Below, piece by piece: positions 9,853 through 31,440 of a DNA stretch of 64,000 bases; the first letter of the stretch is position 1, and each line of letters begins with the position of its first letter. Made by a program: the position numbers and the translations under genes. The stretch lies in assembly GCA_022072025.1 (NCBI GenBank), contig JAJVIP010000007.1:1-64000 (forward strand), written 5' to 3'. Under the pieces are notes generated by a model. That model made no database searches. It was given only the letters and a program-made list of their open reading frames with translations, and had not been told where the DNA came from. This DNA comes from Elusimicrobiota bacterium. Its GTDB lineage: Bacteria; Elusimicrobiota; Elusimicrobia; F11.

Positions 9853-11544
9853 TTAGGTGTTGTTGGCGATTTGGTTTGTGCCTGTGCCGCTGTTGTTGGT
9901 GATAACAACCAAGCTGTTTCCGATCACCACAGCGCTATTGGCATTGGCCTCAAGCAAGATTGTTGAGCCATTGCTCACGTTACCGATGACGGAACATGCC
10001 GTTGAGCCGGATCCGACAATGACGGCGTTTTTTCCGGATCCGAGTGAGATCATGTTTCCAACCGCAGCTTTTTGAGAGGTGGAAAGCCGGATACCCGCTC
10101 CGGACATCGATCCAAAACTCAAGACAAGTCGGCAGTTCATAACTCGACCGGGTTGCTGCATGAAGTCGTTCACGTTGCCGTTATTCTGGGCCTCCGTTAA
10201 TTCACAACTGTCGATCAGTTCTCCGCCTTGAACCATCGCTGTGCTCAATCCGTTGCCGTTGTTCGTGATGATGCAATTGCGCATCTGTCCACCCGTCGAC
10301 ATAAAGATCCATGAGCCAGAAGCTTTGTTGCGGACGAATTGGCAGTTTTCGATAAGACCATTGGTTCCGCCAAAAGAGATGCCGACAAAGGGACTTCCAC
10401 CGGCCCGGCCAGGTTGGTTCTCATCTATCTTAAGGTCGCGCAGTCCTTGGTTATTGCCGGAAACGGCAATTGTATTCACCGCTCCCATCGCTGCGTCGCA
10501 TAGGATGGTGGTTGCGTCGCGGCCTTGGCCTTGCAAGGTAACTTTGTTGGGAATAGTTAAAGTGGCATTAATGAGGTAGCTCCCTTCGCGAAGCTGAACG
10601 ATGCCACCACCCGCCGTACCCGCCGCTGCCAATGCGGCCTGAATATTGGCTGTGTCGGTGGCCGCGACGCCGGTTGGCGCAGCGACGACTTGGGTTTGAT
10701 AGCCCGTCACCCCGCCGCCGGTGGCCGCGATCACAACTTTGTTATTTGGCTCATCTTGGGTCAGTGAGATGTTGGCGCCGGCCTCGAGCTTCACATCACC
10801 GATAAGTGGGTTTGCTTCGCCCAATTTCCGAACACCGGTCACACCGGCGTTGGCGATGGTGATCTTGTCGTTGGGATCGTCTTGAGTAAGAGTGATACCC
10901 GGACCTTCCTCAATCGAAACGTCGCCGGTTAAACTCGTCGCCTCTCCGGTTTTTTTCAAGGAAGATACGCCACCTGTCGCAGCGGCCTCAATCGTCACAT
11001 CACCGGTTCCATCCGGCGGCGTCACGGTAATTCCCGTTCCGGCCACAATCTTTCGCACCGAGGTGCGGGCTGTGTTGGTAGACGGAACCGGAATAGAGTT
11101 GTTTGTGGCGGTATTTCCTGTGTCGGTGTAATTGAGCGTGGATTCTCCGGTGACGTCCGCAAGAAAACGCTCTTGACCCGTGGCGGTTGATTTGTATATC
11201 CGATAGCCTGTTGCGCCCTTCACAATCTCCCATTGAAGAATGACCGGCAACGGCGTCACCGGCTGGCTCACCTGGGCCTCAAGTGTGACTGGGATCTTGT
11301 TCTCGGTGGTCTCGCCGGCCGCGTTGATCGCGGTCACTTTGAAGAAATAAATTGCGCTGCCCAAAAGCTCGGACCCGACCGCCCCAGAGCCGAGAGTGGC
11401 GAGCAGGGTCCGGGGCGGCCGCAAGGTCCCTTGCTGGGCGTGGGCGTCCAACAAATCAAGATTGGCGTTGTGACCGGCTCCCCAATTCAAATCGCCGGTG
11501 TCGCGCTTGGTAAGTTTTAATTTCTCTGTAAAATTCTCGGCCAT
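9853..11544 (-). CDS. Fibre-like protein with Fn3 module and right-handed beta-helix, 563 aa
   Basis: Residues ~1-120 include an Fn3-like module (FFKVTAINAAGE, ATGYRIYKSTATGQERFLADV). Then come three near-identical segments of the type GVSSLKKTGEATSLTGDVSIEEGPGITLTQDDPNDKITIA, typical of phage fibre shafts. A pectate-lyase-like beta-helix occupies about residues 310-560 (GGIVQLREGSYLINATLTIPNKVTLQGQG and serial N-rich turns). Beta-helices in tail spikes often cleave or bind host polysaccharide. The start is placed at MAENFTEKL (11544) because an AAGGAA site precedes it and the longer frame overlaps the Fn3 gene upstream. Confidence 0.75.
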   Translation of the reverse strand: MAENFTEKLKLTKRDTGDLNWGAGHNANLDLLDAHAQQGTLRPPRTLLATLGSGAVGSELLGSAIYFFKVTAINAAGETTENKIPVTLEAQVSQPVTPLPVILQWEIVKGATGYRIYKSTATGQERFLADVTGESTLNYTDTGNTATNNSIPVPSTNTARTSVRKIVAGTGITVTPPDGTGDVTIEAAATGGVSSLKKTGEATSLTGDVSIEEGPGITLTQDDPNDKITIANAGVTGVRKLGEANPLIGDVKLEAGANISLTQDEPNNKVVIAATGGGVTGYQTQVVAAPTGVAATDTANIQAALAAAGTAGGGIVQLREGSYLINATLTIPNKVTLQGQGRDATTILCDAAMGAVNTIAVSGNNQGLRDLKIDENQPGRAGGSPFVGISFGGTNGLIENCQFVRNKASGSWIFMSTGGQMRNCIITNNGNGLSTAMVQGGELIDSCELTEAQNNGNVNDFMQQPGRVMNCRLVLSFGSMSGAGIRLSTSQKAAVGNMISLGSGKNAVIVGSGSTACSVIGNVSNGSTILLEANANSAVVIGNSLVVITNNSGTGTNQIANNT

Positions 11545-11554
11545 ATTTTTTCCT

Positions 11555-11974
11555 TCACAACCCGTACCCCAAAACATCAAAAGCAGCGCCGTAACCTTCA
11601 AGAGAAGAACCAAACGGCCTCTGACTAAACGGCGGATAACTGAATCCATTGGTGTTGGGATCGCCAAAAGGTGCTTCCCCAAATGGACTTTCTCCCCCGC
11701 CGGCTTCCTCAACCCCAACCACCGCATAAAACCGTGTCGGACCGGCTTCGGGATCGGTGTCGTCAAACTGAAACACATCCGTCTTAAGTTGGTTTTCATC
11801 GGCGATCAACTCGCCGAGTTCGTCTTTGTTGACTGAACGATAGACCCGAAACCCAAGAAGCTTATGACCCACCTTCACATTCACCGGATAATCCGCCCAA
11901 TTGAGCCGGACAAATCCCGGCTCGCCGGACGTCACACGGAAATTAGGAACGGGAGGGAGAGGGTGCGAGGACAT
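11555..11974 (-). CDS. Single fibronectin-type III domain protein, 139 aa
   Basis: Residues 8-105 follow an Fn3 pattern (PNFRVTSGEPGFVRLNWADYP ... LLGFRVYRSVNKDE ... TRFYAVVGVEEAG). The C-terminal 35 residues are rich in G, S, P and F (FGEAPFGDPNTNGFSYPPFSQRPFG), like a flexible tail. It sits between the small head protein and the fibre gene and may be a capsid decoration or fibre accessory protein. Confidence 0.65.
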   Translation of the reverse strand: MSSHPLPPVPNFRVTSGEPGFVRLNWADYPVNVKVGHKLLGFRVYRSVNKDELGELIADENQLKTDVFQFDDTDPEAGPTRFYAVVGVEEAGGGESPFGEAPFGDPNTNGFSYPPFSQRPFGSSLEGYGAAFDVLGYGL

Positions 11975-11988
11975 AGTTTCCGATGCCC

Positions 11989-12264
11989 CTATCTCCTCTT
12001 TTTCTTGCCGTGTTTCCTGGAGGATGCTCTTCGCGGTGAGGTCTCGACTGAATCTTTTTCAGGCTGACCGGCGGTTACACCAACGCCCACAAGCTCCGAG
12101 TCGATCGTTTCTTCATAGCCCACCTTGAGCAGATAGTCTCGCGTGGACTGATGAACGACGTCACATACCCCATCCACAACTTTAACCTGCTCGGAGTAGG
12201 CGTACTCCAAGAGCGGCGCCTCAGCCGTTCCAAATGGCGGATTCTTTTTCCGAAGACGGAACAT
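11989..12264 (-). CDS. Small basic protein after the capsid gene, 91 aa
   Basis: Family not recognised. It has an acidic/neutral N-terminal part (LLEYAYSEQVKVVDGVCDVV) and a very basic tail (RRASSRKHGKKKRR). The gene immediately follows the major capsid gene, where head accessory proteins or head-tail fillers are often encoded. The role is inferred only from position. Confidence 0.55.
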   Translation of the reverse strand: MFRLRKKNPPFGTAEAPLLEYAYSEQVKVVDGVCDVVHQSTRDYLLKVGYEETIDSELVGVGVTAGQPEKDSVETSPRRASSRKHGKKKRR

Positions 12265-12272
12265 GAACCCGA

Positions 12273-13175
12273 TTACAACGTGATACCGGCCAAGCGCGAC
12301 ACCTTGATATCGTTGGCCTGAACCAGCGTGATGTCCTGGAAGATATCGAACTCACTGAACTGAGACGACTTCTGTGGAAGCCGCATCATTTTCAGCGGAG
12401 TGAGTTCACCGACCCATACAGCGTTTGTGTCCAGGAAGAAAATATCGGTGCAATTATTGGACGTTCCCTGGGTCTGCGCGTCCGAGATGAAGATGCTTCG
12501 AAAGATCGGAATCCCGTTATAGACTTGCACACGAAACCCGCCTTTCACTTCCATTGTGTCCACGAAACGCTGTTGGGCCTGAAGAAGCGCGTTTAGTTTG
12601 CGGTTAGCCTTCTTGGACATAATGATCATATTGGCCATGCCGCGATTCAAATCGATGGCCTCGTCCATCAGATCAAGATTAAGCGGCGAACCGTTGGCGC
12701 CAGCGACGACGACTTGGCCCGATGGGATCAGTTTCCGCAGTCCATCAAACTGCTTCGGATTGACGGACGAATCTCCGTTGATAATGGCGTCTTCTTCCGC
12801 ATCCCTCACAGCTTGAAGCGCGTTGTTCACTTCTTCTGCTTCAATGTCCAGGAGCGTCTTTCCGACCGCCTGGAGCTTACGCGTCACCTTCCCGCGCTGG
12901 ATAAGCGTCTTGTACGGGAATTTTTTCTGGGCATAGCTTGCCTGTGTGTCCACCGGTTCCTCGGTGTCGTTCACAAAGGAACTTGCCGCACCGCGCGCTG
13001 TCCGTTGATTCAAAATCCATTCCGCGCCGGACCCCGGTTTGCGCGAAAGGTTTTGACGCAACGGGTTGTTCACTTCGATCAGTTCCTGAAGAACCTGATC
13101 GACCAGCGGTTGCTGGAGTTGCTGACCTGCGCTGGCGATATCCAACGCTTTTTTTAATTGCTCTAAGTCGTTCAT
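12273..13175 (-). CDS. HK97-fold major capsid protein, 300 aa
   Basis: Follows the protease/scaffold gene directly. The N-terminal helical segment (residues 1-60) is followed by E-loop-like sequence (SSFVNDTEEPVDTQASYAQKKFPYKTL), a spine helix (EAEEVNNALQAVRDAEEDAIINGD) and C-terminal A-domain strands ending FDIFQDITLVQANDIKVSRLAGITL, all typical of HK97-fold capsids. Thus the virion is a tailed phage of the Caudoviricetes. A GGAGG ribosome site lies before the ATG. Confidence 0.85.
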   Translation of the reverse strand: MNDLEQLKKALDIASAGQQLQQPLVDQVLQELIEVNNPLRQNLSRKPGSGAEWILNQRTARGAASSFVNDTEEPVDTQASYAQKKFPYKTLIQRGKVTRKLQAVGKTLLDIEAEEVNNALQAVRDAEEDAIINGDSSVNPKQFDGLRKLIPSGQVVVAGANGSPLNLDLMDEAIDLNRGMANMIIMSKKANRKLNALLQAQQRFVDTMEVKGGFRVQVYNGIPIFRSIFISDAQTQGTSNNCTDIFFLDTNAVWVGELTPLKMMRLPQKSSQFSEFDIFQDITLVQANDIKVSRLAGITL

Positions 13176-13201: not shown

Positions 13202-13777
13202 TTAACCTTGCTGGAGGGCCAAGGCCACCTTGAGTTTTTTCTCAGGCGGCAACCCTTCAAAGGTCTTTTTGATGTCGTTGTTTTCCGGCTCAGGTTGGAC
13301 GACTCCTTTCCTTTGTGCCGGAATCTGCTTCAAGATCGGCTCGATCTGTTTTTTAATCTCGACGGAAATCATTTGGGCGACCTCTTCTTTTGTAAAGGTC
13401 GGCGCAGCGGGGGTCGTAACCGCAGGCGGCGTCCAGGTCTGGCCCACCGCTTCTTTGAGTGCCGCCTTGATCTCAATGGCGGTTGGTTCCGCATCACCGC
13501 CCAGCGCGATCAAACGGTCTAACATCGGCCAAACGGAGTCGAGTTTGGAAACCAGTTCACTGTCTTTGACCGTCTCTTTCTCTTTGTCCTTTTTTTGCTT
13601 TCCGTCTTTGCCTGCTATTTTTTCCGGTGGAGCGTCTGTGGGATTTGGAGTGTTATCCGGCTCCGCGGAAGGCTCTGGTTTGGGCTCTTCCGGTTTTGGG
13701 GTCTCGGGAGCCGGTGCTTCCTCGGGTTTGGGCTCTTCTGGTTTCAGCTCATCAATAGGGGTTTCTTGTTTTGACAT
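13202..13777 (-). CDS. Nested scaffold protein from internal start, 191 aa
   Basis: Within the protease gene, an ATG at 13777 (MSKQETPIDELKPEEP) is preceded by AAAGGAG nine bases upstream, a better ribosome site than many in the window. Translation from here would give only the proline/glutamate-rich and helical scaffold part without the protease, like lambda Nu3 inside gene C. This is inferred from the site; no expression evidence is available. Confidence 0.5.
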   Translation of the reverse strand: MSKQETPIDELKPEEPKPEEAPAPETPKPEEPKPEPSAEPDNTPNPTDAPPEKIAGKDGKQKKDKEKETVKDSELVSKLDSVWPMLDRLIALGGDAEPTAIEIKAALKEAVGQTWTPPAVTTPAAPTFTKEEVAQMISVEIKKQIEPILKQIPAQRKGVVQPEPENNDIKKTFEGLPPEKKLKVALALQQG

Positions 13778-14314
13778 GGGGTCGTCTCCTTTCTTCATTG
13801 AATCGATCTCATCGAGGGCTTTTTTCACATACCATCCGATGGCGCGGGCCTCGGGATTGGCCGGCACTGACACCAGCGACACTTCCACGAGGACCATCTT
13901 CTTAATGACATTGACCACCCGATCAAATTCAGGCATGAACTTTTTCTCGCGCTCGAGAACTTGGCCTCGGATGGAAAATTTATTGAGAACGCCCTCTTTA
14001 ATTTTCTGAATGATGTCGGGCTCGGTTTGAGAGATCAAAACGTCGATCAGAAGGCCGTTTTTATCGAACTCGGCTTTGGTCACCTTGCCAATGGATTTTT
14101 CGATGTCGTGATTGAGAAGAACGGTGGTGTTTGACAGCAAATCGAGAGATGAGGCCTTGAGCGCTTCTTCGGTGATGATGTCGCCCTGCAAATCAAAATC
14201 GGTTGTCGCCGCATAACCAACGACGTGAAATTCTCCCGACTCATCCATCTGTTTTAGGATGTCGAGTGAAAACCCGAATGGAATCTTTTCCAGTGTTGAT
14301 GTTTTTTCTTTCAT
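13202..14314 (-). CDS. Prohead protease fused to scaffold domain, 370 aa
   Basis: Residues 1-165 carry the HK97 prohead protease pattern: His69 in LLNHD, Ser114 in KFSIRG and Glu144 in EVSLVSVPANPEA. The protease matures the capsid. Residues ~178-370 are low-complexity (PEEPKPEEAPAPETPKPEEP) and then helical, as in a scaffolding delta domain. An internal ATG with its own ribosome site allows separate scaffold synthesis (see the nested entry). The gene is preceded by the attenuator-like leader at 14327-14394. Confidence 0.85.
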   Translation of the reverse strand: MKEKTSTLEKIPFGFSLDILKQMDESGEFHVVGYAATTDFDLQGDIITEEALKASSLDLLSNTTVLLNHDIEKSIGKVTKAEFDKNGLLIDVLISQTEPDIIQKIKEGVLNKFSIRGQVLEREKKFMPEFDRVVNVIKKMVLVEVSLVSVPANPEARAIGWYVKKALDEIDSMKKGDDPMSKQETPIDELKPEEPKPEEAPAPETPKPEEPKPEPSAEPDNTPNPTDAPPEKIAGKDGKQKKDKEKETVKDSELVSKLDSVWPMLDRLIALGGDAEPTAIEIKAALKEAVGQTWTPPAVTTPAAPTFTKEEVAQMISVEIKKQIEPILKQIPAQRKGVVQPEPENNDIKKTFEGLPPEKKLKVALALQQG

Positions 14315-14690: not shown

Positions 14691-14731
14691 ATATTCACCG
14701 CGAAAAATCTAATTCTTTGGATTGAAGCTGT

Positions 14732-14757
14732 CCATAAACTGTTTAAACTGTTTATGG
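14732..14757. promoter_or_regulatory. 26-bp near-palindrome, likely operator
   Basis: The arms CCATAAAC and GTTTATGG are perfect inverted repeats around a central GTTTAAAC. The site lies between the divergent small minus-strand gene (start 14690) and the plus-strand HNH gene (start 14783), so it could control both. A second degenerate copy is at 24800-24825. Confidence 0.55.
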
Positions 14758-14782: not shown

Positions 14783-16033
14783 ATGGCACGCATGATTATT
14801 GATGAAGAATTTGATGATTCGATAAGAATTGAGCTGATAAAAACTTCTCAAGGTCCCGGCTATTGCTTTTATGGTGACCTCTACCGGAGATATCAAATCG
14901 ATCTCGACAATATTGAGGGACGAAACTCCCTTCATCAAGCGCTCGGACGCATCTCCACGCGAGAACACAAACAGGGCCGCCCGCTGTTGTCCGCAGTTGT
15001 GGTAGACAAGAAAAACAAAAGGCCTGGTCCTGGATTCTTTGAATTGGCGAAAACACTCGGTCGATACGATGGGCCGTTAACAGGCCGCAAATCACAGGTG
15101 TTCCTAGATGCCGAACTTCGATCAATCTCTGATTATTGGAGTACTCACCCTTTGCCAACAAGCGAAGATTCAAATGGAAATGGCTCTACATCTGCTTCCG
15201 ATAACACTCGGGCACCTTTCGTAAAGTCCGCGCCTAAAATAGAGCAGATTGTTCTCCGATGGGAAGAGCCAGGCATAAAAAACTACGAAGATCGTTTCCC
15301 GATTTCTGAATTCTCTGAAGAATGCCGAGATGAAAGAAGGCAGCACGTTGTTGTCTCCCCTAACGGATCATCCTCTATTGCGAAATTTCGCTTGACCGTA
15401 AAAGATCGAGTTGCAACGTTGGATTACGGAGCCTTCCTGCATGAAAATCGAAAAGCGGGTATGGAAATAGGCATTATGATCTTGCGATTCGATGATCCCG
15501 ACAATATGACGGTGAAAGAAGCCTATTGGAAGCCGCCAGGAAAATCTCAAAGCCCTGCGTTGCTGAAACAAGTGGTCACGTATGAACCAATCGACTTGCC
15601 AGAGTACTCCCCATTAAAAGGCCAATCAACCAGAGCAGACGTCTCTATAAAGGAAAGGCCTGGGCAAGCCATTTTTCGTCGTCGCCTACGATCCGCCTAT
15701 GGCAACCGATGTTGCATCACAGGATGTGACGTCCCCGTGTGTCTTGACGGCGCCCATATTGACCAACACGAAAATTCCTCACACGACCATCCCAAAAACG
15801 GCCTCCTCCTCAGAAAAGATTTACATGCTCTTTTTGATGCAGGGCTTTTGGCCATAGAACCAACTGGCTTGGTAATCCATTTCAAAACAGAAGTTCGGTC
15901 ATTCTCCGAGTACAACGCTCTGCATGGGAGAAAACTGCGAGGGCCGGAGAAGAGATTTTCCGCTTACACTCCATCGCCCGATGCGTTGTCTCGGCGATGG
16001 AAGAAATTCATCGAATCTGAGAACTCACGGTAG
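14783..16033 (+). CDS. HNH endonuclease-domain protein, cargo gene, 416 aa
   Basis: Residues ~290-360 form an HNH_2-type nuclease domain: [19 protein letters not shown] followed by [37 protein letters not shown]. The zinc-binding cysteines and the AHI/NGLLL/HALFD motifs of the ββα-metal fold are visible. In related proteins this domain often follows an SRA/YDG or another recognition domain and cuts DNA. The N-terminal ~280 residues are not recognised and may sense a target. It is encoded against the direction of the surrounding structural genes and is followed eight bases later by the TPR/propeller/J-domain gene, so the two form an operon. The start is ATG 14783 after GAGGCAG; ATG 14792 is an alternative. 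Defence function is inferred. Confidence 0.75.
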
Positions 16034-16041
16034 GTGTAAAC

Positions 16042-18171
16042 ATGGGATTATTTGACTCTTTATTTGGGGGAACGAAACAACCGGCGGTGCGCGAGTCGAC
16101 GCCGCGAACCACTAGCAATCGGCCATTTGACATTATTGATTCCGCACAAGCCGCTTGGCAGAAAGGAGACGCTGCCCGCGCTGACAAGCTTTTCCTCAAA
16201 GGTATTTCGGCCTACCGAGAACAGGAACCAGACGGAGAAGATTTTGCGCTCGGCCGTTATGGTGCGTTTCTCTTGGATCAAAAGCGAATCGATGAGGCGC
16301 AACAGATTCTCGAACAAGCCGTCAATCACAAGACAGATATTCCGGCCGTCTGGTCGGATTACATCGAAATTCTTATCGGAAAGAATGATCTCAGCCTGCT
16401 TAAACAAGGCGTAGAAAAAATGGAAGCCTCACCACGAGGCCGGGTTGATCCGGAATTTTTACTCGCTCACGCCAAACGCCTTCAACGAAACGACAACTTT
16501 AAATTCGCTGAAGACGTCGCACGATGGGTCATCGAGCGCGCCACGCTTCAATCTGATAAGCAAGGACGGTGGGCCGCCATCGGGACACTGGGACGAATAT
16601 TGCAGGATGCCGAGCGTGAAAATGAAGCGGTCGCGCTTTGGCAAGAGGCCTTCAACGAGGGCAGCACAGATCCCGTCACCGCAGATCGTCTTTCTCTCCA
16701 CCTTGAACGATCCAAGAACTACGCGGACTCCACGCAAATTATTAAAGAAGCGTTGAGCCGCGGATTGCCGGCCAATGCGGAAGAATCGTTACGGAAACGA
16801 TTAGCACGATGCGAGGCCAAAGCGGAGGGGCGACCGACCACCAAAGGTAAAACCCGCGAAGATGTTCCCGCCTATTCAATTCGTGCTGGGGACGATTATC
16901 TTAAACCCCTGTTTCAGGTGCGATTAAAACCCGCCCCTAAAGACCTCGAACTCTTAGGCTCCACGGCGCGATGCCTACTCGCATCGAAAGAATCATCTTC
17001 GCTCATTGATATCGATATATTGACCGGAGCCGAAGTGAATCGTGTCGACGGTCTTCCCGTTTTGGATGACATGAAGTTTGCGCCGAATGGATATGGAATA
17101 GGTCTTAAGCGAACGGCCGCTGTCGGCAAAGGCCCAACTCATCTTGTTTTCTTAGACGACAAAGGACGGGTTAAAACAGAGACCTCCATCCCCGACGCGA
17201 CGTCGGACATCGCATTGGGCCCGAACCTGTGGTACGTCGGTTGCCGAGACGGATTTCTTTACGCCTTTAATCTGGAAGGAAAAAAACTCTGGTCGTGGGA
17301 AACCCCCGGCGCAAAGACACATCAAGACAACGTTTATTTTAGACCGTGTCCATACTACGTCTCATCGCAAGAATCTTTTGCCGCCATTGGAAGCATGGGG
17401 ACGATATTTGCAATCGACTCAAACGGTCGTACCCGTTGGACCCAAGTTATTCCCAATGAAAAACAAACCAAGTGGACTTTTACCGTTCCTATGGACGGAA
17501 TGACAGATGGGAAAGAGGCGTACAAAATTTTAGGGATTCCAGTTGGAGCAAAGCCTGAAGACGTTAAAGCTGCCTATCGCAAACTTGCCTTGGCCACGCA
17601 TCCGGATCGCAATCCATTGGACCCAAAAGCGACCGAAAAGTTTAGAGAGGTTCAAGGCGCTTACGAACGAATCGTTTCTGGAAACATCAGCCTGGGCAAT
17701 GGAAGCGAAAAAGGCGTTACCTTCACAATCGAAATTCAAGGGGTGGGGCCGATGATCAACTTCATTGCCGCTAATTCCGAAGGAGTGGCTGTTGGTTCAT
17801 CTCAGGGCCGGTTGTACTTATACGACGCCAAGGGTCAATTGAAGGAGGCTCGGGTTCTGGGCGACGGTCAGATTAGAGCGACGCTTAGGCCTGATGGATC
17901 ACTCGGCGCTGCCTGGTGTGATAACACTCTTTTGTTTTTTAAGAATGGAAAAATCGTAAACGCAGTCGAGGCTCCAGAGTATCCGACCGCCCTCACTATG
18001 ATCGGGGACGAGGTTGTCATTTCACGCGGGAAGCAGGCGTGGATTCTCGATGAGTATGGGCGTACTCGATGGATGACTGAATTTTCCAGGTCCATCACCG
18101 GTGTCGCTGTCCATGATGACGTTCTTGTTTTTTCTGCCGGTGTTTTGGTTGGATTTCGCAGACCACATTAA
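16042..18171 (+). CDS. TPR / PQQ-like beta-propeller protein with embedded J domain, 709 aa
   Basis: Residues ~30-270 are TPR-like helical repeats ([61 protein letters not shown]). Residues ~285-485 and 560-709 look like blades of a PQQ/WD-type propeller ([43 protein letters not shown]). Between blades, residues ~490-550 form a J domain with the HPD motif ([33 protein letters not shown]), which stimulates Hsp70. The J domain inside a propeller is unusual. The ribosome site GGTAGGTG is five bases before the ATG. It is probably a partner of the HNH protein, with a scaffold or chaperone-recruiting role. Its 3' end overlaps the convergent methyltransferase gene by four bases. Confidence 0.75.
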
Positions 18172-20252
18172 TTCGCGACCAATTTAACGCCTGACCCACC
18201 CGTCCCTTTCTCAACATAGGTATCCGATTCCTTAATCGGATAATTTGAAACCAGCAGCTCGTATTTATTCCGAAATCCCAACTGGTTCGCCCCCGTCCAC
18301 ACAGTCTTGACACGATAAGTTTTGAACCCTTTAAAGATCTTCGCCTTCTCCAGTTCGTAACTTAATAAGAATTGCCCTTTAATTTTGTGGAGAGCATCTA
18401 ATAGGTCATCCTCTTTAAAAAACTTCGATCCCACACCTCGGCTTTCGTCCGGCCAATGATTTGGATAAGGCGGATCTAGATAAATGAACGAATGGCTTGA
18501 GTCGAACAACTTGATCGCATCTCTCCAGTCTTTATTCATCAATTTCACGCCCTGCAGTCGTTCCTGAATTTGCGGCAATCGGTGCACCAGCTGGATTTTG
18601 TATCCCTCCCCCTTGGGTCCAGTCCGCATCCCTTCAATCCGGTCGGTCCTCCCCCAGTAGTTGGCCTTGTTGAGATACGCAATCCGATAAAAACGTTCCT
18701 TGGGTGAGCGCGGATCGTGATCAAAAACTTTTTTGACGTGAGATCGGGAAATCACCCAGTACTGTTTCTCCAGCCAGTCCTGATCCTTTTCATTCATGTT
18801 TTTGATGAACCGATACGCGAAGATCAGGTCCGGATTAATATCGTTTAACACTTCTTCATCCGACCGCTTCTTATGGAAGAACACCTGCGCCCCGCCGCAA
18901 AAACCTTCCACAAATGTTTTGTGTTCAGGAATCATGGGAACAAGCTTTTTGCAGAGCCGGAACTTCCCTCCGGGGCTTTTAAACGCGCCCTGGATCTTTT
19001 CCAAGTCCTCAACACCGTCGTATTGCGGAAAAAGCAGTGTTATTTGCCCTTCCATTCCCTCTGGCTTCGGCTCCAATTCCTTATCGATATACAGGTTGAC
19101 CGACTTCAGTTTGTTTTTTGAGATGAGTAGCTCCGTCACCCATTCCTGATTGCCGCCCGGACCTCGCATCTGATTTCGTCTTTTCACCCTGTATACGTTC
19201 AGCCCTTTGAAGGCGTCGGCCCGCTCCGCCGTGTATGACACAATCCAATCCGCTTTCAGCGTCTTGAGCATCTTTACGAACTTCTCTTCCTCAAAGCCGA
19301 AATCAAAAAGATTGAACGTGCCGGGATAGGGCGGATCGATGTAGAAAAACGTGTCCTCGCCGTCATACTTTCTCAGCACGTTGGCGTAATCCTTGTTGTG
19401 GATCACGATTTCCTTGATGCGCTGTTGAGCGCGAGTGATGTTGTTCTCAAAATCAATCGTCACCCCCTCGTTGGCCGGATTAAAGGAACCGCCGCGCTGT
19501 TTGCCGTAGGATGATCGCGTCAGGTAATAGCTCTTGTAGAACCGATCAAGCTCGCTCTCCGGTTTCATTTTCTTTAATCGCTCGTGGGTTTCTTTTTTGA
19601 TCACCCAATTGCGCTTGGCAAGAGCAGAACGCTGCTCCGGTGTGTGATCGCGAATGAACCGGTACATGAACGCGATTTCCGAATCACGGTCGTTCAACAC
19701 TTCCTGTGGCGAGGGATCTTTGGCGAAAAGGACAGCTGCGCCACCAGCAAACGGTTCGACGTAGGTTTTGTGATAGGGGATGTAGGACGCGATTTTGTGC
19801 GCCAGCGCTCGCTTTCCGCCATAAGATCCAAATGCCTGACGGACCCCCTTTAATGTCTCCGCCTCATCGTCAATGACGATTTCTTCGGGATCAGAATTCA
19901 CATCGGCCAACTCCTCTATAACAATCTCGTCCTCAAGATCGATTCCTTTTTCATCGGTGGGACTATCGGGAATAGGCCGATTCGACCTCTTGGTTAACTG
20001 GTCGTTTATCGTGTGAGAAAAGGCGCGCCGGTTCATCTCGGATTGAACCACTCCATGCAAACTGATCAGATCCTCCGCGCTCCAATCGGATCCGTTAAAA
20101 AACACCCGATGCCCTTCTTCAAGAACTTTCCACGACCGGTGGAGGATAAAATCCATCGATAGCAGTTCCTGATCCACGAGCTTATCAGGGGCCAACTGAA
20201 ACAGGTTCCCGAACTGTGCCAAGTTAATTTTCGTGATCTCTAGTGTTTCCAT
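18168..20252 (-). CDS. Double D12-class adenine DNA methyltransferase fusion, 694 aa
   Basis: Two Dam-like N6-adenine methyltransferase modules in one chain. Module 1 (~residues 140-375) has [13 protein letters not shown] (SAM site) and FYIDPPYPG (catalytic DPPY). Module 2 (~425-675) has [13 protein letters not shown] and IYLDPPYPN. Both share the D12 middle region (for example [14 protein letters not shown] and [14 protein letters not shown]). The first ~130 residues, with [32 protein letters not shown], are extra. Phages use such enzymes to protect DNA from restriction. The start is at 20252 because a GAGGTG site precedes this ATG and the longer frame overlaps the portal gene. Whether both modules are active is unknown; module 2 has EGF where EPF is usual. 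Confidence 0.85.
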
Positions 20253-20254
20253 CG

Positions 20255-22357
20255 TTACACCTCGCTGATAAAAGTACACCGGCAGTTGGGATGAACCGGC
20301 AGTAGATTGTGAGCCTCATCAAGGCTCAAATTTTTTCCAAGTTTGTCACCGGGGATGGACTCGGACACCGCCCGGCATTCAGGGCAAGCATCTTCTGAAA
20401 GGAGGAATACGACTCGATCAATTCCGGCTTGATCGAGCGCGTCCAGATTCCCTTCGTTGTAAGCCCGATTGGCCTCTGATCGGGCGATCATTTCCGCAAC
20501 CGTTTCTCTCGACACATCCCGCGCATGGCCAGCCCGCAGGACCCGCCCGTGAGCATCGATCACAGGCCGCACATTCACCGTGGCGAATGAATCAAGCTGA
20601 GCCGCCACGCGCTCTTGGAGTTTTTGGACGGGTTCATTGGCCGCGAGGCCTTCAATGAGCGCCTGGCGAATCGAATCTTTGATCGAGGACGAAATATGCG
20701 AGGCCAAGGTCGATGCGTTACCTCGGAGGAGTTCGTCCAATTCCATACTGATGTCATCGATGTCCTGGAGCTTGTTTCGCTTGGCCGCTAACTTAAGGGC
20801 CTTGGCGGCCGCCTCAAGCGAGTATTTTTCCAGAACGCGGCTGATGCCCTCCTCATCGATCACTTCGAGAATCACTTCAAGATCATCCAATCGTTTAAGC
20901 GTCTCAGGAAATTGAACACGCCGGAGCGACACGCCTCGAACAGCGACTTTATCGATTGAAAATTGAAGCGCCGCCTTTTCTATTTGTGGCACAACCCGCT
21001 CCCTGGCAATGGTCGGAATACGCCGACCAATACTTTCTTTGATCCGTTGGAAGAGTTGATCCAACGCCCGAGCGAAACGAGTCTCGATGGCAATCTGTTC
21101 AGGAGTGGCATTGATGACGGGTTTGGGGCGAGATCGTTTTCCCTTCACAAACTCCAAGTCTATCCTTCCGCTCTTTTCCAACTCCGGCATCCGAGGCGCC
21201 ACAATCCGACGAACCTCTTCCGGCTTGAGTACCCCGCCTTGAAGGTAAATATTGAAAATTTCCGCCTGGTCTTTTTCATCAATCGCCCGCTTATTAAATT
21301 GGAATGCCCAATCGGTGATTCCGAACCCGCCCCGGATAATGTGCTTGGTGATCTTTTCCGCCACCCGCATTTGGAACGGCAAAATGGTTTCCTCATAAAA
21401 CGTCTGAGTTTGATGCTCGCCTGTTCCCGCCCCGATATTTCCCGTTTCGATGATCGACACTTTGCTTGGGGGAACGCCGTATACCGCAAGGATTTCGTTT
21501 CGCGTAAACTCGCGCAGCTCCAAAAACTCCATGTCTTTCTGATTCACGCTGATCTGCTTGTATTCGACCTCACCCTCCAACACGAGATCAGCATGCGCTT
21601 GGTCGGGGTTTTTTGCTTTGGCCTGGAGGTATTCGCGGTTGCGCTCGACCTGCTCCGGCGTGGCGTCTTTCATGATAAATGCGCCTCGGATCTTGGCTCC
21701 ATTCACAAAAAAAGACCGATTGTAAACTTGGGCAAACCGGTCAACCGTCACCGGCAACACGAGCGAGATGAGTGGTGATAGGCCGTACAACGTCGCGCCT
21801 TTGGTGCCGAGTTTAAAATGAATGACCTCTCTCGGATCGAAATCAACCTTCTTGGCGGTCGTATAACGCGGACATTGCACGTAGCCGATGATGGTTCCAT
21901 GCTCGTCGGCTTTAACGCGCACTGTGGTCGCCTCAAGATTCCACAACTCTTTTGGTTTACCGTCCGGACCGTAAACGACCTCAAGAAACGCGTTTCCAAA
22001 AACGTATTCGTCCCGCGTGATGTCATCGAGTATTTCTAGGAAGGTGTCATTGGGATTGCAGTTGGCGAAAAACTCGGTCAAAAGCTCCGCATGGTCCGGA
22101 TTGGCGTCGGGCCGCAGCGGAACCAACGTATAACCGCGCGCCGTGACCGCTTTGCAGATGACACCGACCACGGCCCGCACCCAGGACGTCTGCTCATAGG
22201 TCTGATTAAAAATCTCGAAGTCGACGTCGGGATAAATTCCTTCGCTGGGAACCAACCCCAACACATGCGACACCATTTGTTTCGAAGACTTTTGGATCTC
22301 CCGTTGAAGCACGTCCCCAAAAAACGCTTTCACGATCCGGTCTTTGAGTCCCATCAC
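20255..22357 (-). CDS. Phage portal protein fused to MuF-like domain, 700 aa
   Basis: Residues ~1-420 are a HK97/SPP1-type portal: FGNAFLEVVYGPDGKPKELWNLEATTVRVK, ATLYGLSPLISLVLPV and EILAVYGVPPSKVSI. The C-terminal ~250 residues end in the Mu gpF-like minor head motif, LSEDACPECRAVSE followed by PVHPNCRCTF, with four cysteines and one histidine placed as in MuF proteins. Portal and MuF are usually separate neighbours; here they form one polypeptide. It overlaps terL by four bases. The portal forms the DNA entry ring, and MuF may be ejected or help head assembly. Confidence 0.88.
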   Translation of the reverse strand: MMGLKDRIVKAFFGDVLQREIQKSSKQMVSHVLGLVPSEGIYPDVDFEIFNQTYEQTSWVRAVVGVICKAVTARGYTLVPLRPDANPDHAELLTEFFANCNPNDTFLEILDDITRDEYVFGNAFLEVVYGPDGKPKELWNLEATTVRVKADEHGTIIGYVQCPRYTTAKKVDFDPREVIHFKLGTKGATLYGLSPLISLVLPVTVDRFAQVYNRSFFVNGAKIRGAFIMKDATPEQVERNREYLQAKAKNPDQAHADLVLEGEVEYKQISVNQKDMEFLELREFTRNEILAVYGVPPSKVSIIETGNIGAGTGEHQTQTFYEETILPFQMRVAEKITKHIIRGGFGITDWAFQFNKRAIDEKDQAEIFNIYLQGGVLKPEEVRRIVAPRMPELEKSGRIDLEFVKGKRSRPKPVINATPEQIAIETRFARALDQLFQRIKESIGRRIPTIARERVVPQIEKAALQFSIDKVAVRGVSLRRVQFPETLKRLDDLEVILEVIDEEGISRVLEKYSLEAAAKALKLAAKRNKLQDIDDISMELDELLRGNASTLASHISSSIKDSIRQALIEGLAANEPVQKLQERVAAQLDSFATVNVRPVIDAHGRVLRAGHARDVSRETVAEMIARSEANRAYNEGNLDALDQAGIDRVVFLLSEDACPECRAVSESIPGDKLGKNLSLDEAHNLLPVHPNCRCTFISEV

Positions 22358-24799: not shown

Positions 24800-24825
24800 C
24801 CATAAACCGTTTAAACAGTTGATGC
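24800..24825. promoter_or_regulatory. Second copy of the GTTTAAAC operator-like palindrome
   Basis: CCATAAAC, one base, GTTTAAAC, one base, GTTGATGC: a degenerate copy of the site at 14732-14757. It overlaps the stop codon of the upstream gene (TAA inside GTTTAAAC) and lies just before the zinc-protein start. It is probably a binding site of one phage regulator that controls late operons. Confidence 0.5.
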
Positions 24826-28676: not shown

Positions 28677-29142
28677 TCCGTTTCTCCTGCTGATAATTGA
28701 AAAATTTCTCCAAAAGCCGGTAGGTCACAGCTCGGCCGAACCGTCGATTGCCCGCAAAGAAAACCGCGAGCCGGTATTTCACCGACCAAGCCAAAAGCGT
28801 GTTAACCACCGCTTTGGGATTCATCTGCGAATAGGGCGGCGGCGTTAAACACTCCTCCAACGTGGCTTCGACAACAATGGCCGCATAGTCCATCGCGGCC
28901 AGCCGCTGGACTTCCCGTTCAAACCGTTTGCGCTGCGCTCCCACCGAGTTGAAAACGTCCTGCAGACTCTTCCGCTCAATAGCGACCTTCGTTTCGTATC
29001 CAAAAAGAGAATAATCGCCCGAGCGCAAAGCCATCACGGCCGCGCCCAGGTATTCGTAGGGCTGCTGCTCCCGCGAATCAATAATGATGGAAAGGGACCG
29101 TTCGGCCTCCGGCTTAGTGAGCGAACTAGCTTTTCTTCCCAT
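28660..29142 (-). CDS. ERCC4-type nuclease, 160 aa
   Basis: Has the XPF/ERCC4 nuclease core: IIIDSREQQPY, LRSGDYSLFGYETKVAIERKSLQDVF, where the GDY and ERKxxxD residues are catalytic or metal-binding. Single-domain versions occur in phage recombination or replication modules, acting on branched or flapped DNA. The start overlaps the end of the helicase gene by 17 bases. Confidence 0.82.
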   Translation of the reverse strand: MGRKASSLTKPEAERSLSIIIDSREQQPYEYLGAAVMALRSGDYSLFGYETKVAIERKSLQDVFNSVGAQRKRFEREVQRLAAMDYAAIVVEATLEECLTPPPYSQMNPKAVVNTLLAWSVKYRLAVFFAGNRRFGRAVTYRLLEKFFNYQQEKRSGKPQ

Positions 29143-30331
29143 TGATCAACTGCGTCAGATTCGTAAATCGTTTTCCCTGTTGATTGCGCCACACAACCCT
29201 GGGGATCTCATCGCGTTGTCCAACAAGGATCAAGAGTTGTTTCGCCCGGGTGACAGCGGTATAGAGCAGGTTGCGTTGAAGCAAGAGACCACCAAAGCTT
29301 TTGTGGACCGGCACGATCACAATCGGCCACTCAGAGCCCTGCGCTTTATGAACCGTGATCGCGTAGGCCAGCTCGAGATCATTTCCTTTAAGCGGCAACT
29401 GAACGCGCCTCTCCGGGCTTTCAAAATTCACCGCAATAATCTTTTCCGCTTTGTTGATCCCGGCCACAAACCCCATATCGCCGTTCACGATGTTGTGGTC
29501 GTAGTCGTTTTTCGTATTGATGACTTTGTCGCCGACTTTAAACGGATAGTTGGGGATTGGATCAGAGGGGTTAAGCGCTTTCTGAAGTTCGAGATTGATC
29601 GATTTGCAGGAGAGCGTCGTTTTCTCACGAATCGGCGAGATCACCTGAACATCTCGCAATGGGTCCAGTTTTCTGTTTTTCAGTAATTCACTTGAGAAGA
29701 ACTCAATGATCTTTGCCAACACATGCTCTTCTCTATCTCGACCAATAAAGTAAAAATCACCGGCGTTGTTATTTTCGGTGATGATGTCCTCACCGTTTTT
29801 TATGCGGTGAGCGTTTTGAACGATCAGGCCGTCTTTCTGCCGCTTGATGATGGTCAGCTCTTTGGATGGGACTGATTGCGAGTTCAACAAATCCCGAAAG
29901 GGGCTCCCCGGCCCCACCGGTGGAAGCTGATAATGATCTCCGACCAAAACCACCTTGGTGTGCGGCGACACCGCTTTCATCAGACTTGCCATGAGAGAAA
30001 TGTCCACCATCGACGTTTCATCCACCACAACAAGGTCCGCGGCCAACAAATTGTTTTCGTTTTTGGAGAATTCGAACCGGCCTTTCACTTTGGTGGGGCC
30101 CAACATGCGATGGATCGTCATCGCTTCTCGACCAGTGACCTCGGATAGTCGCTTAGCCGCTTTGCCCGAGGGCGCCGCGAGCGAGATTCGGTATCCGGGC
30201 CGCGCATGAGCGTCAACAATTGCTCTGACAACCGTCGATTTGCCGGTTCCGGCGCCGCCCGTCACAATGGAGAATCGGTGCTTGCGAACCAGATCTTCGG
30301 CTTCTTGTTGATCAGGGAAGAGATTCATCAT
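29126..30331 (-). CDS. RecD2-type helicase, C-terminal motor part, 401 aa
   Basis: Superfamily 1 helicase motor: Walker A VTGGAGTGKST (residues 24-33), Walker B VVVDETSM (101-108), GDHYQLPPVGPG (motif III), and C-terminal TVHKAQGSEWPIVIVPV and LLYTAVTRAKQLLILVG (motifs V and VI). It corresponds to the second half of RecD2. The N-terminal half is encoded separately upstream with a 20-base overlap, so the enzyme is split. It could assemble from two chains or arise by +1 slippage at CTC-AAA-AAT near 30330. Confidence 0.85.
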   Translation of the reverse strand: MMNLFPDQQEAEDLVRKHRFSIVTGGAGTGKSTVVRAIVDAHARPGYRISLAAPSGKAAKRLSEVTGREAMTIHRMLGPTKVKGRFEFSKNENNLLAADLVVVDETSMVDISLMASLMKAVSPHTKVVLVGDHYQLPPVGPGSPFRDLLNSQSVPSKELTIIKRQKDGLIVQNAHRIKNGEDIITENNNAGDFYFIGRDREEHVLAKIIEFFSSELLKNRKLDPLRDVQVISPIREKTTLSCKSINLELQKALNPSDPIPNYPFKVGDKVINTKNDYDHNIVNGDMGFVAGINKAEKIIAVNFESPERRVQLPLKGNDLELAYAITVHKAQGSEWPIVIVPVHKSFGGLLLQRNLLYTAVTRAKQLLILVGQRDEIPRVVWRNQQGKRFTNLTQLINGKKS

Positions 30332-31208
30332 TTTTGAGAAGCACCTTTATTTTGTTGGCCACAAAAGATTCGTCGTTGAAGAGCTGTGGCAAATAAGCGT
30401 TGTCGCCGTCCACTTTGATCACAGCTTCCGTGATGAGCTTTGGCAGAACAGCCTCAACTTTGGCGGATTCAATCGCCAACAGCTCGGCCGAGGCCTGAAT
30501 GAGGATCGGCTTCGGCAAAAAAACATGGCCGGCTTCTCTCGACGCCTTTTGAAGAACGTAGAGCAAGCCGGCCCGGACCCTGGGCAAACCCTCGGGGTCA
30601 AATCCAACTTTCTTGGCTATCGCATCGGCGATAGTAAACCCGACGCGATCAATCTCGGTCATCAGTTCATAGGGATTGCTCCGTATGCGATCAGGCGCAT
30701 GGACTCCCCAAATTTTGATGATGTCGTGAACAGCAGATTTTGGTATGCGGGTGCCGCCCACCATTTCTTTGAGCGTCAGAGTCAGTTTCTCACGCGCCTC
30801 GATCTCTTTAAGGCCCGCTGAGATTTTCTCCGCATGTTCCTTGGTGATTCCTGTGACTTTTTCTGCCACTTTCTCATGACTGTCTTTCAAAACAATCAGC
30901 GTCTGATCGCCAAACGCCTCGGTTAATCGCTCAGCCAAACGAGGACCAACACCATCGGCGTTTTCTTCGAGATATTCTTGGATCGCTTTGATTCCAGTGG
31001 GGTGGCGCGCCTCATAATCGACAAATTTAAACCCCCGCCCGAATCGTGGATGGTTTTCCCACTCGCCGTGAAAGGTATAGACCATGCCGATCTCCGGCCA
31101 GAGCATGGGACCCTTTACTGATGCGCCTGAATCCAACCGAGCGATCAGAAATCCGTCCTCGTGGTAACGGATTTCAACGAGTGTTCCCTCAAGAATTTCT
31201 TCGCTCAT
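30312..31208 (-). CDS. RecD2-type helicase, N-terminal part, 298 aa
   Basis: Matches the non-motor half of RecD2: an OB-like start (EGTLVEIRYHEDGFLIARLDSG ... YTFHGEWENHPRFGRGFKF), then helix-hairpin-helix segments (GIKAIQEYLEENADGVGPRLAERLTEAFG, VGFTIADAIAKKVGF) and a winged-helix-like end. ATG 31208 (MSEEILEGT) is preferred since family members begin at this point; upstream ATG 31235 is possible. It ends within the first codons of the motor gene. Together they would unwind DNA 5' to 3' in repair or recombination. Confidence 0.75.
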   Translation of the reverse strand: MSEEILEGTLVEIRYHEDGFLIARLDSGASVKGPMLWPEIGMVYTFHGEWENHPRFGRGFKFVDYEARHPTGIKAIQEYLEENADGVGPRLAERLTEAFGDQTLIVLKDSHEKVAEKVTGITKEHAEKISAGLKEIEAREKLTLTLKEMVGGTRIPKSAVHDIIKIWGVHAPDRIRSNPYELMTEIDRVGFTIADAIAKKVGFDPEGLPRVRAGLLYVLQKASREAGHVFLPKPILIQASAELLAIESAKVEAVLPKLITEAVIKVDGDNAYLPQLFNDESFVANKIKVLLKNDESLP

Positions 31209-31440
31209 CGTCGAGTTTGATGACCCCAAGGTCATGGAGCGTTCGGCATTGGCAACAAAGCGATTGATGCCGGTGCCAGACCATTTCATGCCGGTAAACA
31301 TCTCGAGCCGCTTCCAACCGCAAATAGAAGCTGTCCGATCTTGCGTTCGATCCCAACTGTGTCAGAAGATTCTCGAGCGCCGAGACGATATTCCTGTATC
31401 GACTCGCTGTGTCGCCCCATTTTTCTGTGTGAGTCATCAT
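31189..31440 (-). CDS. Small phage protein with Cys cluster, 83 aa
   Basis: Family not recognised. It starts with a helical region (ALENLLTQLGSNARSDSFYLRLEAARDVY) and has CCQC near the end. AAAGGAG lies six bases upstream of the first ATG, and the stop overlaps the start of the RecD2-like gene. A TTGTTTAAAACAA near-palindrome (31451-31464) stands just before it. Confidence 0.55.
   Translation of the reverse strand: MMTHTEKWGDTASRYRNIVSALENLLTQLGSNARSDSFYLRLEAARDVYRHEMVWHRHQSLCCQCRTLHDLGVIKLDDERRNS

Follow-up and report, generated by a model that had tools for sequence, protein, structure and literature searches.

Temperate phages and their satellites of the P2 and P4 types carry hotspots in which a fixed slot between conserved phage genes is occupied by exchangeable defense-type genes. 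Chaperones are implicated in defense as well, as shown by bNACHT25, in which phage sensing requires DnaJ and its contact with DnaK, and chaperone guarding has been proposed for other systems too (PMC12169576). Here, we describe a prophage-borne pair of genes in an Elusimicrobiota genome, one coding for an HNH nuclease and the other for a protein with its own J domain. All positions are those of the window, by which we mean the whole stretch of 64,000 nucleotides that was analyzed.

A two-gene insert among phage head genes

Two open reading frames, both with ATG starts, are on the plus strand at positions 14783 to 16033 (gene 1, 416 aa; an HNH nuclease from HNH_2, a PADLOC HNH profile, and a match to PDB 6yex) and 16042 to 18171 (gene 2, 709 aa; a TPR/propeller/J-domain protein from Pfam and a structure model), with a gap of 8 nt (16034 to 16041) between them. 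Leftward of the pair and on the minus strand are a 58-aa small phage gene (14514 to 14690) that adjoins the slot, a prohead protease (13202 to 14314; Peptidase_S78) that forms its left flank, and an HK97-type capsid gene identified by Pfam. Rightward, and also on the minus strand, Pfam identifies a double D12 adenine methyltransferase (18168 to 20279), a portal, and a terminase; the methyltransferase forms the right flank, with a 4-nt overlap between its stop and that of gene 2. Both flanking genes are kept in related phages, which have homologues of the small gene at the equivalent place. These coordinates and flanks agree with the preliminary description, which had two genes eight bases apart running against the phage structural genes. 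Third-position GC is 0.46 to 0.50 in the pair versus 0.60 to 0.70 in the neighboring phage genes. We also note a RecD2-like helicase on the minus strand at 29126 to 31301, divided between two open reading frames with a 20-nt overlap; the split presumably reflects a frameshift, either programmed or an error.

The insert is bounded by the methyltransferase stop and an inverted repeat, CCATAAACTGTTTAAACTGTTTATGG (14732 to 14757), which marks the left edge of the slot and is conserved in related phages by sequence comparison. A promoter-like TGGACA-17-TAGATT (14706 to 14734, minus strand), with the same layout in relatives, is a candidate promoter for the operon of small gene, protease, and capsid. 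In several phages with an empty slot (L061, L065, L066, L068, and L069), the methyltransferase stop abuts or overlaps the repeat, after which come TGGACA, 17 bases, a TAGAAT-like sequence, and then the small gene. Where inserts are present, they always end at the conserved repeat and the capsid-operon promoter. The repeat was considered as the cargo's own operator and rejected as such, since it is conserved in phages with or without cargo, and it is thus a regulatory element of the phage. A second copy is at 24800 to 24825, ahead of the terminase operon, and two copies are also present in L061, L068, L069, L076, L101, L102, and L103. Because the repeat precedes the terminase operon too, a common late-gene regulator is suggested.

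The cargo slot in related phages

Viral loci were recovered by portal (nine loci), capsid (ten), and protease (sixteen) searches, many being common to several of these. With the capsid profile, six copies were detected in the genome to which the window belongs, and eight further genomes of the phylum yielded more. The six copies in this genome (G000) are in C7, C10 (two), C13, C4, and C30, and the readable slots differ from each other, save for those of C13 and C4, which are closely similar. We compared the methyltransferase-protease site in 20 other distinct phages, several of them in the window's own genome, with near-identical loci counted once (as for L069, taken together with L065 and L101, which are the same). 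L104, whose slot reads N, stands outside the count, and L126 begins within the slot. Both sides of the slot are visible in 19 of the phages, and in L098/L099 the methyltransferase side is past the contig start, leaving the left edge visible.

The slot is empty in 11 of the 20 phages (L061, L066, L068, L069, L073, L102, L103, L105, L107, L109, and L130), where it spans about 50 to 570 bp and usually holds the small gene only. It is filled in the other nine (L074, L076, L078, L096, L097, L098/L099, L100, L106, and L108/L131), with genes that differ from the pair, and the earlier proposal that the pair is prophage cargo is well supported by this pattern. These inserts code for a GmrSD_N protein (L097; E 6.9e-30), a PIN_12 protein (L100; 2.8e-29), an AIPR protein with an Mrr-like N-terminus that is also matched by PADLOC AbiU (L106; 6.6e-29 and 4.3e-27, respectively), and HEPN_AbiU2 (L078; 1.8e-9) together with a 158-aa protein that is membrane bound by appearance. 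Another has three genes, one with NOV_C (L074; 1.7e-6), and others code for a 145-aa protein with an ExK-like motif, noted by eye, beside a Sel1-repeat protein (L108), or for a single protein, again membrane bound by appearance (L076). About 10 kb in L096 (L096:4788-14211) is occupied by genes for a Ser/Thr kinase-TPR protein, a sigma factor, PEGA, and CsgG-like and lipoprotein-like products, and two nearly alike contigs carry an AcrB-family (RND) efflux pump (L098:342-3464 and L099:53-958) immediately ahead of the small gene, protease gene, and capsid gene. Cargo is antisense to the structural genes in the window and in seven of the nine filled slots, the exceptions being L096, with genes on both strands, and L098/L099, in which the pump is on the structural strand. 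The GC content of the inserts that were measured is mostly well under that of the surrounding locus.

Judged by the sequences of its contents, which include known defense families, the slot is a hotspot for prophage cargo and defense genes, and it is not limited to defense, because the AcrB-family pump, the kinase/sigma/PEGA cluster, and the L076 protein of membrane-bound appearance are also there. The pump and the cluster lend some plausibility to reading the pair as a module for stress response or proteostasis that includes a DNA-processing enzyme, giving the host a benefit other than against phages. We regard this as unlikely, since a nuclease with a restriction-linked N-terminal domain suits defense better, and nuclease-type or abortive-infection-type domains are present in five other inserts.

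Two further features of these phages are recorded here. A gene of 247 to 257 aa is between terminase and portal in L061 (9264 to 10007), L068 (8771 to 9514), and L074 (1087 to 1860) and is lacking from the window; by eye, its product recalls DNA-modification proteins of the Mom type. L105, with its capsid gene on the plus strand, has a match gap of about 1.2 kb (11484 to 12652) within the methyltransferase gene.

Domain organization of the two proteins

Gene 1 had been described as an HNH_2-type nuclease with an unrecognized N-terminus of 280 residues. The nuclease assignment holds, with an HNH_2 match at residues 310 to 359 (15710 to 15859, plus strand; E 3e-12) that passes the Pfam cut-off and intact motifs (CCITGC from 310, GAHI at 323, NGLLLR at 339, and DLHALFD at 346) that place H325, N339, and H348 in the catalytic core. 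A PADLOC HNH profile matches with an E value of 8.7e-15, and the PADLOC HNH models match across the HNH part only. The N-terminus is partly recognizable, as residues 1 to 121 (14783 to 15145, plus strand) form a widespread small domain, whereas the middle region, about residues 150 to 285 (15230 to 15637, plus strand), has no trustworthy Pfam, PHROG, or NCBIfam match, and its predicted strands are of low to moderate confidence. The AlphaFold model is confident only at residues about 10 to 125, with most residues of the N-terminal domain above a pLDDT of 90, and a fold search with the model returned nothing at an E value of 0.001.

Homologues of the N-terminal domain are stand-alone proteins of 110 to 160 aa in bacteria and archaea (Actinomycetota, Pseudomonadota, Chloroflexota, Planctomycetota, Bacteroidota, and archaea), and in four of the nine non-Streptomyces loci inspected they are adjoined by known defense genes. 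One homologue is inside a type I restriction-modification operon with HsdR, HsdM, and HsdS around it (L040), one follows a type IIG enzyme (L030), one is between a type III methyltransferase and a GajB-like helicase (L035), and one is between a DRT8 reverse transcriptase and a PDC-S31 protein (L029). In the window's own genome, a 430-aa protein with this domain adjoins a type IIG-like methyltransferase. The association with restriction is to be read as linkage and not as a rate, because the neighbors scanned were those chosen by eye. Gene 1 thus brings to attention a small domain without a name that is linked to restriction of types I, IIG, and III.

The closest solved structure to gene 1 is the HNH endonuclease 6yex (E 1.8e-5), which we take to be VcaM4I, a type IV restriction enzyme, and the NCBIfam model for phosphorothioate-DNA restriction matches at 8.1e-8, far under its cut-off score. 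Both matches would suit a stand-alone, type IV-like HNH nuclease whose middle region recognizes modified DNA and for which gene 2 serves only as a folding helper. We consider this improbable: no EVE, SRA, SBD, or other modified-base reader was detected in residues 1 to 285, although a divergent one is possible where the model is weak (142 to 285), and 709 aa is a costly helper for folding only.

The preliminary description of gene 2 as a combination of TPR repeats, propeller, and J domain also stands, with support that differs among the three parts. The J domain (residues 491 to 545; 17512 to 17676, plus strand) has a strong Pfam DnaJ match (residues 493 to 542, E 1.2e-16) and an HPD motif at residues 520 to 522 (17599 to 17607). 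Residues 28 to 261 (16123 to 16824, plus strand) form a TPR-like helical solenoid of 13 predicted helices, mostly with pLDDT values of 70 to 92, in which the Pfam TPR matches are individually weak. Propeller strands are modelled at residues 341 to 482 (17062 to 17487, plus strand; here with weak matches also) and 559 to 704 (17716 to 18153, plus strand), flanking the J domain within a low-confidence region of a structure model built without an alignment; the propeller match is weak (Pfam ACSF4, 4e-5), and the region also matches designed and PQQ propellers. Gene 2 is therefore probably a J domain inserted between the strands of a beta-propeller. No PADLOC model matched gene 2. Candidate relatives with a propeller and a J domain on rhizobial plasmids were set aside, as they look like short, ordinary DnaJ/CbpA-like proteins in which the extension past the J domain looked like chance, and only one was annotated; a candidate in the same class (L010) is a J protein of 153 aa.

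Recurrence of the pair in other genomes and prophages had been proposed as a check on joint function. Searches of limited reach gave no second copy; they covered 341 genomes from the phylum, samples from three further phyla that were each queried with one gene (gene 1 in two phyla and gene 2 in one), and phages, plasmids, and viral contigs. Single-protein scans of the viral contigs found nothing for gene 1 or gene 2, which is weak evidence because exact 8-residue matches were required. A single scan of the genome collection with the N-terminal domain as query found proteins with this domain only, and no single system in PADLOC-DB 2.0 has models that match both genes. With no second example of the pair, its joint function is argued from one operon.

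Proposed function and comparison with known systems

The contents of the slot in relatives and the restriction-linked domain of gene 1 mark the pair as prophage cargo and a candidate for defense, and we think it rather probable that it has a defense function with the HNH protein as effector. As a two-gene anti-phage (or anti-plasmid) module, the pair would be made by the lysogen and would shield both host and prophage. Gene 1 would be the effector, its HNH domain cutting DNA and being aimed by the middle region and by the N-terminal domain, which may bind or position DNA or a restriction partner. Gene 2 would act as an adaptor, with TPR and propeller surfaces that hold the nuclease, an infection-derived protein, or both, and a J domain that passes the complex or client to DnaK, such that the nuclease would be assembled or released once phage proteins load the chaperone system. 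From these parts we infer that the two proteins may act together, that DNA would be cut during infection, and that DnaK would be the switch. The chaperone-gated mechanism, taken alone, is decidedly more tentative than the defense function. Somewhat more speculative again is a defense system with its own J-domain sensor, in which the propeller/TPR protein would monitor the DnaK machine, or the phage proteins loading it, and DnaK would activate the nuclease.

The mobile context and the adjacency of the genes, only 8 nt apart, could also be expected of a toxin-antitoxin or addiction pair in which the HNH protein is toxic to the host and is restrained by gene 2 with the help of DnaK. This partly overlaps the defense reading, and as an explanation of its own it is quite improbable, given that both proteins are large and that the N-terminal domain is usually found among restriction genes. 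A structural or packaging role, with gene 2 as a morphogenesis chaperone and gene 1 as a packaging HNH protein, would account for the location among head genes, and HNH proteins are common beside terminases, but it is very improbable in view of the opposite strand, the lower third-position GC, and the eleven relatives in which the slot is empty and the head genes are retained.

If the pair is defensive, it would be, as far as we could find, the first system to encode its own J domain beside a nuclease, and it would offer a simple two-gene setting for chaperone-based phage sensing, to be compared with host DnaJ and bNACHT25 (PMC12169576). Apart from the pair, candidate defense genes can be drawn from the slot itself, which belongs to a prophage family with members in nine genomes of a single phylum.

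Like the hotspots of P2/P4-type elements, this is a fixed slot between conserved phage genes with exchangeable defense-type contents; it differs in phage family and in position (between the methyltransferase and the capsid-operon promoter), is not reserved for defense, and has contents known by sequence. Gene 1 has the same kind of HNH core as 6yex (E 1.8e-5) and, more generally, as type IV HNH restriction enzymes; it differs in starting with the small restriction-associated domain, and searches for a reader domain found none. Gene 2 resembles class C J-domain proteins in having an HPD-containing J domain, with none of the G/F and C-terminal substrate domains that come next in classes A and B; its J domain is instead between propeller strands and is preceded by an N-terminal TPR solenoid, a layout for which no relative was found. 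TPR and propeller scaffolds are shared with the MoxR-vWA ternary conflict systems (PMC7159879), whereas the pair is a two-gene operon that has a J domain in place of the MoxR ATPase and vWA protein. With bNACHT25, the pair would have in common a DNA-degrading effector, and sensing in that system needs a J protein and its contact with DnaK (PMC12169576); in contrast to bNACHT25, the pair lacks a NACHT ATPase and encodes the J domain itself, within a probable propeller.
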